A stretch of 33,694 bases of DNA from Gemmatimonadota bacterium (GTDB lineage Bacteria; Gemmatimonadota; Gemmatimonadetes; Gemmatimonadales; Gemmatimonadaceae): the NCBI GenBank assembly GCA_019510405.1, contig JAEKKK010000053.1, positions 1 through 33,694 on the forward strand. Direction: 5' to 3'. Each line of letters begins with the position of its first letter. The stretch's first letter is position 1. The notes beneath the pieces were generated by a model that saw only the letters and a program-made list of their open reading frames with translations, was not told the DNA's origin and searched no databases. Positions 14,939 through 19,527 of the stretch are shown here, in pieces. A program made the position numbers and the translations under genes.

Positions 14939-15188
14939 GGTGCGCGGTCGGTTGCCTGACCAATACGCGGTGCGGCAGTATCGATCCCGACTCGGGTCGG
15001 CCGCGTTCGACAACGCGCCGTAGCGGACGCATGTGATAACGCGCACTTGACAGTTGCGCTCCGCAGGCGAGCGTATCGGGAGCGGGAAGGGAGCGGGGGC
15101 GATGCAGTCCTCCGGTCGCGATCTTCGGGGGAGCAGCAGGCATGCGCAAGCGCGGGGTGGCTATGGGTCCGCAGTCGGAGGCAGGGCG

Positions 15189-16865
15189 ATGACTCGCCCA
15201 TCGCGGTCCGAAGCATCGCGCCTGACGCTGGTGTGCGCGATCGCGACGATCGCGACCGGCGTGACGGTGCTCACCGGCTGGACGCTCCACGTCGACTTGC
15301 TGACGCGCATGTTCGTCGGCAACGTGCACATGCTGCCGATCACCGCGGCCACGTTCGTGATCGCGGGCGTGTCGCTGTGGATGCAGCGTGTCGACACGGA
15401 CGAGGCGAGCCGGTTGTCGTTCGTGTCGCGCGGGCTCGCGGTGCTCGTGGTGGTCATCGGACTGGTGACGCTCGCGGAGCGCGCGTGGGGGTGGAGTACG
15501 GGGCTCGACGGCCTGCTCTTCCCCGCCACGCTGGCGCGGCTGCCGTACCAGCCGGCGGGGCGGATGGCGACCAACTCCGCGGTGAGCTTCGTGCTCGCCG
15601 GCGCCGCCCTCTTCCTGCTCGACGGACAGACGCGCCGCGTTCGTCAGACTGCGCACTGGTTCTCGACGCTGGGCATCACGATCGCCGCGCTGGCGCTGAT
15701 CGGCTACCTGTACGGCGCGACGGCGCTCTATCAGATGGATGTCGCCGCGTCGATGGCCGTATCGACGGCGTGCGCCTTCTTCGCCCTCTACGTCGGGATC
15801 CTCAGCGCGCGGCCCGGCGCATCGTGGGCGGGACGGCTCGTGTCGCGCACGGGGACGGGGATGCTGGCGCGCCGGCTCCTGCTCGCGCTGACGATCGTCC
15901 CGCTGGCGCTCGGGTGGCTCTACCTCCACGGCCGCGACTACTTCAGCCGCGAGATCGGCATCGCGATCCTCGTCGTCGTGATAATGGCGATCCAGCTGAC
16001 CGTTCTCCTGCGCGCGGCGGCGATCGTGCAGCGGGGCGAGCGCGCGCAGGCGCGCGCATTGGAGCACGCGGCAGCGGCGCGCGACGAGGCCGAGCGCGCG
16101 AACCGGGCGAAGAACGACTTCCTCGCGGTGATGAGCCACGAGCTGCGCACACCGCTCAACGCGATCATCGGGTATGGCGCCCTGCTACGCGACGGGATCC
16201 CCGATCCCGCCACGCCCGGCCAGCGGAATCAACTCGAGCGCATCGGGGCGAGCGCGAAGCATCTGCTCGCGCTGATCGACGAAGTGCTGACGCTCTCGCG
16301 GCTCGAGCTCGGGCGCGAGCGCATCACGCCGACGCGCGTCGGCATCGCGTCGCTGTGCGAGGAAGCGGCGGCGATGATGGAGCCCGAGGCCAGCCGGAAG
16401 GGACTCGCCCTGACGCTGCACCTGCCCGAGCCCGTGTACACGATGACGACGGACGCGGGGAAGCTGCGCCAGGCGCTCGTGAACCTGATCACCAACGCGG
16501 TGAAGTTCACCGACCGCGGCGGGGTGCAGGTGCGTGCGTGGGGCGAGGACATGGGGTCGGTGGTCGTCTTCGAGGTCGAGGACACGGGGCTCGGCATCTC
16601 AGCCGATCATCTGCCGATGATCTTCGACGCGTTCTGGCAGGTGGATCAGGCACCGACGCGACGCGTGGGCGGCACGGGGCTCGGCCTGCACGTGACGCGG
16701 CGGCTCGTGCGCCTGCTCGGCGGCGACGTGGTGGTGCGCAGCGTCCTCGGCGAAGGGAGCTGCTTCACGATCCGGGTGCCGCGGGCGTACTGGGAAGCGC
16801 CCGCCGAAGGCGGGTCGATGGATGTGATGGATACCGGAGAGTTGGTGGCGAGTCGGGCGGGATGA
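15189..16865 (+). CDS. Membrane sensor histidine kinase
   Basis: Multiple N-terminal TM segments; H-box FLAVMSHELRTPLNAIIGY; N-box LVNLITNAVKFT; DTGLGIS and GGTGLGLHVTRRLV. Confidence 0.9.
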   Translation: MTRPSRSEASRLTLVCAIATIATGVTVLTGWTLHVDLLTRMFVGNVHMLPITAATFVIAGVSLWMQRVDTDEASRLSFVSRGLAVLVVVIGLVTLAERAWGWSTGLDGLLFPATLARLPYQPAGRMATNSAVSFVLAGAALFLLDGQTRRVRQTAHWFSTLGITIAALALIGYLYGATALYQMDVAASMAVSTACAFFALYVGILSARPGASWAGRLVSRTGTGMLARRLLLALTIVPLALGWLYLHGRDYFSREIGIAILVVVIMAIQLTVLLRAAAIVQRGERAQARALEHAAAARDEAERANRAKNDFLAVMSHELRTPLNAIIGYGALLRDGIPDPATPGQRNQLERIGASAKHLLALIDEVLTLSRLELGRERITPTRVGIASLCEEAAAMMEPEASRKGLALTLHLPEPVYTMTTDAGKLRQALVNLITNAVKFTDRGGVQVRAWGEDMGSVVVFEVEDTGLGISADHLPMIFDAFWQVDQAPTRRVGGTGLGLHVTRRLVRLLGGDVVVRSVLGEGSCFTIRVPRAYWEAPAEGGSMDVMDTGELVASRAG

Positions 16866-16875
16866 TCTTTAACCA

Positions 16876-17162
16876 CCACTCCCAGTACTGAGTACGAAGT
16901 ACCTGGTACCTGGACTGGCATAACGGCTCCCGGAAGGCTCGGAAGCCGCTCTATCCGATAAGCACACGGCCGTACTGAGTACCAAGTACGCGTTGGGGTC
17001 AGAGTCAGCGATTCGCTGACTCTGACCCCTTTCGTTGAATAGCTGGAATGCGCCAGGGGGTCAGACACCTTCGGTATCTGACCTCAACAGCTGGCCCCTT
17101 CATTCCGGGAGGCAGTATGCCAGTCTCGGTACCAGGTACCTGGTACCCGGTACTGGGAGTGG
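16876..17162. repeat. MITE-like composite element with 60-bp imperfect terminal inverted repeats
   Basis: 16876-16935 against the reverse complement of 17103-17162: 51/60 identical by ungapped hand alignment. Internal hairpins at 16995-17029 and 17059-17084. Confidence 0.8.
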
Positions 17163-17259
17163 CAGTTCAGTAATCCCCTAACCCCAAGCGCCAGTACCAC
17201 TTGCCTACACGGCCCACTTTTCGCACGGGTCCGGTACGGACGTACCAGAACTTCCATCC

Positions 17260-19527
17260 GTGCAATCCCTGTCTCTCCGCTTCCATCTTCTGCTGGCGGC
17301 CGCGCTGTGCGCGATGCCGATCGGGATCGCCCGCGCCCAGTCCGCACCGAGCGCCGAGCGGCCGGTGGTCGGGCTGCACGATTCGATCGACGTCGCGTCG
17401 CTGAAGTTCGACGGCGCGCAGGCGGTCACGCCCGACGAGCTGAAGCTGATCGTGTTCACGCGGACGTCGAGCTGCCGGCTCGTGCTCATCGCGCCGCTGT
17501 GCAAGCTGTCGCGCAGTCAGCTCTTCATCGACCGCCGTCGCACGACCCCCGCGGCGCTCGGCGAGGACATCACCAAGATCCGCGTCTACTACTGGCGTCG
17601 CGGCTTCCGCGACGCGCAGGTGGACACCGTGCTCACGGCGGCGCGGCACGGGATGAACGTCGCGTTCCGCATCGTCGAGGGAGAGGCGACGCGCATCGGC
17701 ACGCTCGACGTCGAGCAACGCGCGCCAGTGCTGAGCGAGAAAGAGCTGAGCGACGCGGTCGTCGTGCACGCGGGAGAGCCGCTCGATCTCATCGCCCTCG
17801 ACACGACGCTCAACCGGCTCCACGACGCGGTCTGGAACAAGGGCTACGGCGACGTGCGCGTCGATACGACGGTGCCGCGCGCCGACGCGTCGCACGTCGT
17901 GCCCGTGCGCATCGACGTCGACCCGAAGTACCTCACCCGGGTCGGCCAGGTGAACTTCGAAGGGAACCGCGCGATCTCGGATGCGGCGCTGCGGCGCGGC
18001 ACGATGCTCCAACCGGGCACGCTCTACACGCGCGACGCCGTGCTCGAGAGCCAGCGGCACCTGATGCAGCAGCCGCTGCTCGCGCGCGCCGTCGTCGTGA
18101 CGCCGCCCGCGGGCGACAGCGTCAAGACGATCACCGTGGCGGTCGCGGAGCAGAAGCCGCGGCACGTCGATGCGACGCTTGGCTTCAACACGATCGAGTT
18201 CGGCCAGGCCTCGCTGGACCTCCGGCACAACGCGCTCGGCGGGGGACGGTGGCTGCGGCTGTACGGCTCCGTGGGCAATCTCTTCAGCGAGCAGCTCAAC
18301 GGCTGGGGGATCTTCCAGCAGGTGATCCCCGAAGATCCGATCTTCGATGCCGATCCGTTCGTGCAGCCGGCATACGAGGCATCACTGACATTGACGCAGC
18401 CGTGGATCGCCGGCGCGCGGACCTCGGCGTCGGTCCGTGCGTTCGCCAACCGCCGGATCCTCACCGGCGTGGCGGTGGACCAGAGCGTGGGGGGATTCGT
18501 CGGCATCGCGCACGACATCGCGCCGCGAGCGCCGATCGGTCTCAACTACCGGCTGGAGGCGGTGCGCGTGGAAGCGGGTGCGGTCTACTTCTGCGCCGGC
18601 TACGGCATCTGCGACGCGGCGACGATCCAGGCGCTCAGCAACACGCAGCGACTCGCGCCGATCGGTGCAAGTGCGTGGATCGACCGGTCGGACGATCTGG
18701 ACAGCCCGACGCACGGCTACACGGCGCTGCTCGACGCGGAGCACGCGTCGCGCGCCACGGGCTCGACGTTCGAGTTCAACCGCATCCTCGGCGACGCATC
18801 GTACTACAAGCCACTCGGCGCGGTCCCATCCACGTACGGCATCACGAAGCCGCCGAAGGTGCTCGCGTTCCACCTGCGCGCCGGCATGATGCGCCCGATG
18901 GACAGCGACCGCACCGCACTCGGCATCGCCACGCCCGGCGAAGGGATCGCGCATCCGCGCACGCTCTTCTACGCGGGCGGCATGCAGTCGGTGCGCGGCT
19001 TCGCCGAGAACGAGCTCGGGCCGCGCGTGCTCCAGGTACGCGCCAGCTCGCTGCTCGCCGCGGGATGCACCCTCGCGACCATCGTGGACGGGACGTGCAA
19101 TCCGAACGGCGTGCCGAACGACGCGGTGTTTCCCGTGCCGACGGGCGGGAGCAGTCTCCTCGAGGGAAGCGTCGAGCTCCGGATGCCGCTGCGGAAGAAC
19201 CTCACCGGCGTGGCGTTCGTCGACGCGGGCCACGTCGGCACGACCGGCCTCGCGACGGTGGGACAAGCGAAGGGCGCGGTCACGCCGGGCTTCGGATTCC
19301 GCTATCGCTCGCCACTCGGCGTGATCCGGCTCGACTTCGGGCTCCGTCCGGTGGGCGAGGAGCAGCGCCCGGTCGTCGTCGCCATCCCGGACGCGACCGG
19401 GCAGCTCCGCATCGTGCAGCTGCAGCAGGAGAAGTCGTACTCGCCGGTGGAGAATCCATCGCCGGGCACGTGGCGCGCGATCGGACGCCGGATCGTCGTG
19501 CACTTCGCGATGGGGCAGGCGTTCTGA
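17260..19527 (+). CDS. BamA/TamA-family (Omp85) outer membrane assembly factor
   Basis: GTG start, signal peptide, POTRA-like repeats (VGQVNFEGNRAISDAALRRG) and C-terminal barrel motifs (SVRGFAENELGPRVL; GFGFRYRSPLGVIRLDFGLRP). Confidence 0.9.
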   Translation: MQSLSLRFHLLLAAALCAMPIGIARAQSAPSAERPVVGLHDSIDVASLKFDGAQAVTPDELKLIVFTRTSSCRLVLIAPLCKLSRSQLFIDRRRTTPAALGEDITKIRVYYWRRGFRDAQVDTVLTAARHGMNVAFRIVEGEATRIGTLDVEQRAPVLSEKELSDAVVVHAGEPLDLIALDTTLNRLHDAVWNKGYGDVRVDTTVPRADASHVVPVRIDVDPKYLTRVGQVNFEGNRAISDAALRRGTMLQPGTLYTRDAVLESQRHLMQQPLLARAVVVTPPAGDSVKTITVAVAEQKPRHVDATLGFNTIEFGQASLDLRHNALGGGRWLRLYGSVGNLFSEQLNGWGIFQQVIPEDPIFDADPFVQPAYEASLTLTQPWIAGARTSASVRAFANRRILTGVAVDQSVGGFVGIAHDIAPRAPIGLNYRLEAVRVEAGAVYFCAGYGICDAATIQALSNTQRLAPIGASAWIDRSDDLDSPTHGYTALLDAEHASRATGSTFEFNRILGDASYYKPLGAVPSTYGITKPPKVLAFHLRAGMMRPMDSDRTALGIATPGEGIAHPRTLFYAGGMQSVRGFAENELGPRVLQVRASSLLAAGCTLATIVDGTCNPNGVPNDAVFPVPTGGSSLLEGSVELRMPLRKNLTGVAFVDAGHVGTTGLATVGQAKGAVTPGFGFRYRSPLGVIRLDFGLRPVGEEQRPVVVAIPDATGQLRIVQLQQEKSYSPVENPSPGTWRAIGRRIVVHFAMGQAF

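Follow-up and report, generated by a model that had tools for sequence, protein, structure and literature searches.

Results

A composite palindrome separating a kinase gene from an Omp85 gene

The window analysed here, that is the whole stretch of 33,694 nucleotides from a Gemmatimonadota bacterium, carries a non-coding repeat element which does not lie inside a 23S rRNA helix: its site is the interval between a histidine kinase gene and an Omp85 gene (Table 1). A sequence-only reading had described it as a 287-bp MITE-like element beginning 10 bp past the kinase stop, and its structural description was borne out. The 60-bp arms (16876-16935 and 17103-17162) match without gaps at 51 of 60 positions, the internal copy of the arm core (16972-16989, compared with 16885-16902) agrees at 17 of 18, a perfect 17-bp stem is formed by 16995-17011 and 17013-17029, and a hairpin with a TTCG apex is present at about 17057-17085. 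Only the borders are changed: since the conserved ends extend 5 to 7 bp further outward, as (TG)AAC[TG][GA]CCACTCCC..., the element is better given as 16871-17167.

Table 1. Parts of the element and the neighbouring genes, in window positions
Feature	Position	Strand	Description
Whole element	16871-17167	.	Conserved ends AAC..CCACTCCC / GGGAGTGG..GTT; aligned with about 20 near-full copies from the same genome and 79 ends
Left arm	16871-16935	+	Four GTAC heptads, at 16885, 16892, 16899 and 16906
Right arm	17103-17167	-	GTAC heptads at 17129, 17136, 17143 and 17150
Inner palindrome, left half	16950-16989	+	CTCTATC..ACGGCC GTACtgaGTACcaaGTAC
Nested REP-like hairpin 1	16995-17029	.	GGGGTCAGAGTCAGCGA-t-TCGCTGACTCTGACCCC
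Nested hairpin 2	17057-17085	.	GGGGTCAGACACC-TTCG-GTATCTGACCTC
Upstream histidine kinase gene	15054-16865	+	HisKA, HATPase_c (Pfam)
Downstream Omp85/POTRA outer-membrane protein gene	17260-19527	+	Pfam

Over their 65 nt, the two arms are 83% complementary to each other, and their GTAC units form a 7-bp array (GTACNNN). The long complementary ends thus form a stem, as in IVS and IVP elements. The region folds far better than its shuffled versions, with z scores of -12.6 and -12.1 (RNA or DNA) and none of 100 shuffles equalling it. A scan against Rfam gave sub-threshold matches only.

A dispersed family in the same genome

The element belongs to a dispersed repeat family, so that the absence of other arm copies, which would have spoken against a mobile element, is not what was found. 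In the assembly (3.74 Mb in 327 contigs, 77% complete) the GTAC-arm family counts about 20 near-full copies, 69-89% identical, besides numerous partial copies, and at least one family end occurs at 52 distinct places. The exact 13-bp end motif CCACTCCC[AG]GTAC is found 66 times, for an estimated 0.2 or so by chance. Three size classes can be told apart: solo hairpins of about 57 bp, long palindromes of about 225 bp, and palindromes carrying GGGGTCAG, of about 255-365 bp, the window copy having 287. The exact arm pattern had no match in collections of genome contigs and viral contigs, from which the same or very near genomes are possibly absent. The end motif AACNNCCAC accompanied by GTAC heptads was seen at four places in the sister genome G005 and once in G117, and in none of the other genus members tested. 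One genus member, G002, is matched at 79% over 1152 bases by a named Gemmatimonadaceae contig (L172), so that the genus probably belongs to Gemmatimonadaceae.

Aligned family ends read (TG)AAC[TG][GA]CCACTCCCAGTAC, and conservation fades outside. The AAC...GTT ends had suggested an integron attC site, a candidate that was rejected, as the bases outside the ends are not conserved. No target-site duplication was detected in 25 complete copies, with several end definitions and lengths tried. The MITE-like label is therefore only half right: inverted ends, multiple non-coding copies and the palindrome remain, and a classical MITE is not supported. Nor did we find, for this family, a clean empty site with precise ends.

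Two arms resembled each other no better when they belonged to one element than when they came from different ones (similarity 0.773 within against 0.789 between, permutation p 0.97). There is thus no arm covariation within elements, and no sign of a pairing kept by selection on each copy.

Nested repeats that also bracket a Y1 transposase gene

The sequence-only reading had also proposed that a GGGGTCAG element was nested in a GTAC-rich palindrome. This nesting holds, because family copies without GGGGTCAG exist: C182, C240 and C295 (223-226 bp) are each a single long palindrome, with a GTAC-repeat centre bracketed by ACGGCC/GGCCGT. Both halves of the inner palindrome are kept in these three insert-free copies; the window element has lost its right half or has it replaced. 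GGGGTCAG or its complement is present in 25 of 29 complete records, a few overlapping ones being counted twice, and hairpins 1 and 2 are found together, in the same order, in several family copies.

The inserted repeats live largely elsewhere. Across the genome, GGGGTCAGAGT[AC] was counted 207 times and a reversed control 0 times; the repeat often forms tandem or inverted units of 15 bp at a distance from GTAC elements. The genome has two Y1 genes. The Y1_Tnp gene on contig C29 (1229-1564) has three GGGGTCAG copies on one side (822-863) and three inverted ones on the other (1693-1742); the hairpin 1 repeat flanks it on both sides as GGGGTCAGAGTA. The second Y1 gene, on C229, is cut by the contig end; its visible side is flanked by GGGGTCAG-like sequence. 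In another genome (G060), the GGGGTCAGAGTCAGCGA form stands just ahead of a frame read as RAYT.

TIR-flanked tyrosine transposases sharing the motif GGGGWSAS were described by Di Nocera and colleagues (PMC3733652). As GGGGTCAG fits this motif and brackets a Y1 gene, the internal hairpins are best filed with repeats of the RAYT/TIRYT kind, which they also resemble in forming hairpins. They differ from those described (PMC3733652) by being nested within another palindromic element and by the absence, as we read them, of the GTAG tag of GTAG REPs.

A 23S_rRNA_IVP gene lies between the same arms in a sibling copy

A transposase related to the arms had been suggested as something to look for. None with GTAC arms was found among the two Y1 genes and the arm neighbourhoods examined in this 77%-complete assembly, and no GTAC cluster was found around the C29 Y1 gene. 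The gene that does lie between such arms is of another kind. A 567-bp sibling (C270:27719-28285) has the same arms (about 59 of 66 positions alike, with one 1-nt gap), homologous to the left arm of the window element, and encloses an intact ORF of 125 aa, absent from the window copy, that matches PF05635, 23S_rRNA_IVP (E 6.7e-31). It is also recognised as TIGR02436, four helix bundle protein, and its closest solved structure is 2gsc, XCC0516. In the sister genome G005, a GTAC arm with the AACTGCCAC end, as in the C270 sibling, is followed by a truncated IVP frame and then by GTAC units.

The association extends well beyond this genome. In relatives, PF05635 genes are flanked by inverted arrays of other units, such as (GGAGTCA)n / (TGACTCC)n and (GAGAGTT)n / (AACTCTC)n. 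Among 52 PF05635 loci, mostly the best hit per genome rather than a random sample, 43 lay between inverted arms scoring above all 100 shuffles of both flanks; of 52 control pairs situated another 1 kb away, none did so. The positive loci comprise 21 of 23 in relatives and 22 of 29 in other phyla, the latter from genomes picked for holding a GTAC array, their arm units being nonetheless diverse. An earlier version of the test, with 30 shuffles of one side, had given 20 of 23 and 5 of 23 for controls on the loci where the two-sided version gave 21 and 0. The best-scoring lag in the 43 positive loci was 7 in 35 cases and 8 in 6; the GTAC arms belong to these 7-bp arrays. Conversely, in 890 kb around GTAC arrays from many other phyla, five IVP genes were found, four of them within 400 bp of an array.

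In several phyla the heptad unit varies from gene to gene, yet it agrees between both arms of one gene. From these sequence comparisons, this suggests that arms and IVP gene travel together. In Algoriphagus and Litoribacter populi (loci L181 and L202), an IVP gene lies between GTAC heptad arrays with the same neighbouring genes.

A few arrangements seen along the way can be added. At L181 and L202, the IVP element precedes apparently the same gene. Several GTAC arrays lacking a gene occur in Litoribacter ruber as well. At another locus (L087, G042:C8, about 1390-1545), inverted (GAACTGC)n / (GCAGTTC)n arrays switching to (GCAGTAC)n lie close together and enclose no IVP gene; this is a heptad hairpin made of another unit, again gene-less. 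At L261 (G000:C313), the IVP gene follows an array of GCGTGCTCTGACG and precedes its inverted copy; the period of this array is longer, not 7.

Elements occupy the 3' ends of genes and the junctions of rearrangements

With genes called by a simple GC3-based procedure, 20 of 21 elements fall into intergenic space. Sixteen could be classified by the orientation of their neighbours: 8 lie between convergent genes, 8 between tandem genes and none between divergent ones, so that they sit at gene 3' ends.

Elements are also found at the junctions of rearrangements. In the sister genome, the kinase gene is followed by a convergent gene X, and the Omp85 gene is on another contig, behind another gene. 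Within the assembly itself, a second copy of the kinase 3' end is found at C39:10054-10269 (L062, L084): 194 bp matching the end of the kinase side at 99% are followed by a solo GTAC hairpin of 57 bp and, behind it, by sequence read as gene X. Since the window differs from both, the junction formed by the kinase gene, the 287 bp and the Omp85 gene is a synteny breakpoint located at the element. The presence of the window arrangement and that of C39 in one metagenome bin may reflect strain variation. A chimeric contig at this junction is less likely, given that the longest exact match of the window copy to the other sequences compared in its own genome is 56 bp. Another example concerns C270, where two elements delimit a segment of 1.77 kb; the sister has this segment in inverted orientation (L312, G005:C34:3845-5900), and a GTAC element stands at each of the two junctions there. 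For the element at C270:16310, the orthologous site of the sister holds a version of its own, so this place is old and not newly inserted.

Discussion

The element of the window is probably a gene-less member or derivative of a class of intergenic stem-loop IVP elements related to the IVSs of 23S rRNA, into which RAYT repeats were nested. In the gene-bearing form, 7-bp tandem repeats (here GTACNNN) would make up two inverted arms, with a 23S_rRNA_IVP gene enclosed by them. Gene-less copies would derive from it, the arms having multiplied without the gene in this genome as solo hairpins, long palindromes and palindromes carrying GGGGTCAG; the spread of the arms may be helped by the IVP protein or by some factor that reads the stem, and recombination between copies could then rearrange the chromosome. 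Several observations count against this explanation: a single intact IVP copy with GTAC arms is present in the 77%-complete assembly, neither a target-site duplication nor a clean empty site with precise ends was found for the family, arm pairing does not covary within elements, and the place at C270:16310 is old.

The reverse order of events appears rather unlikely to us. GTAC-heptad hairpins would then be older host repeats, the IVP gene a passenger that entered their loops, and the window copy would never have had a gene. Such a history would account for solo hairpins and gene-less copies being far more numerous than the single gene-bearing copy, and for the GTAC arrays without IVP genes seen in many phyla; IVSs moreover substitute for rRNA tetraloops (PMC4990558). 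It fits poorly with heptad units that differ between genes but agree across the arms of one gene, which suggests joint travel.

It is quite improbable that the whole is a compound REP/BIME structure whose movement depends on a Y1 transposase, with the GTAC arms serving as ends of a TIR-type RAYT (TIRYT) element. The Y1 gene on C29 is bracketed by GGGGTCAG repeats, with no GTAC cluster found around it, and the one on C229 is accompanied by GGGGTCAG-like sequence on the side that is visible, even if the missing target-site duplication would suit a Y1 enzyme, two such genes are at hand in the genome, and some Y1 genes do have long flanking TIRs and spread as dimers and clusters (PMC3733652).

We consider it very improbable that the element is a functional RNA hairpin located at the 3' ends of genes, a terminator or mRNA stabiliser under selection and homogenised by gene conversion: its very stable fold and its location, intergenic and never between divergent genes, would be expected of one, and against this stand the composite and nested structure, the absence of compensatory changes within elements and the absence of any Rfam family at threshold. 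Highly unlikely, too, is an ordinary MITE derived from a DDE transposon, the full-length copy of which would be missing from the incomplete assembly: size, terminal inverted repeats, copy number and intergenic site agree with it, but arms made of 7-bp arrays, an IVP gene between them and 25 complete copies without target-site duplication under any end definition tested do not.

Bacterial MITEs thus resemble the family in size, inverted ends, copy number and lack of coding capacity, and differ from it by their target-site duplications and cognate transposases, neither of which was found in the 25 complete copies or among the two Y1 genes and the arm neighbourhoods. Another likeness is offered by the 23S rRNA IVSs of Coxiella and Leptospira, with complementary ends forming a long stem and an IVP-family ORF in the loop. 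The Coxiella IVS has an S23p ORF preceded by tandem heptamers, GACAGAT, whose number varies between strains (PMC4990558). Unlike these, the present elements are intergenic and multi-copy, their arms are mostly heptads, and the window copy is without the ORF.

Heptameric repeats are over-represented in bacterial genomes, and their explanation is unsettled (PMC4692102). In Xanthomonas, each genome has about 70 inverted pairs of GGGAATC heptads, in intergenic arrays of unexplained origin, much like the arrays described here; the unit is another one, the repeats are framed as G-quadruplex repeats, and no link to IVP was seen there (PMC4692102). Our search, whose reach excluded most subscription journals and preprints, found no paper tying heptad arrays to IVP genes. 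A broader proposal, which we hold as tentative and somewhat doubtful, is that stand-alone IVP (PF05635) genes across bacteria might form the centre of a class of mobile stem-loops that has gone unrecognised, with inverted arms of 7-bp repeats read by an IVP pentamer, many unexplained heptameric repeats and gene-less palindromes being their remnants.

The spread of IVSs and the role of the IVP four-helix-bundle proteins are poorly understood. The strong association of IVP genes with inverted heptads connects these questions with that of the heptad repeats and makes both testable: the arms predict a candidate binding site, and gene-less families predict mobilisation in trans. In this genome, palindromes of the GTAC-arm kind are located at junctions of chromosome rearrangement.
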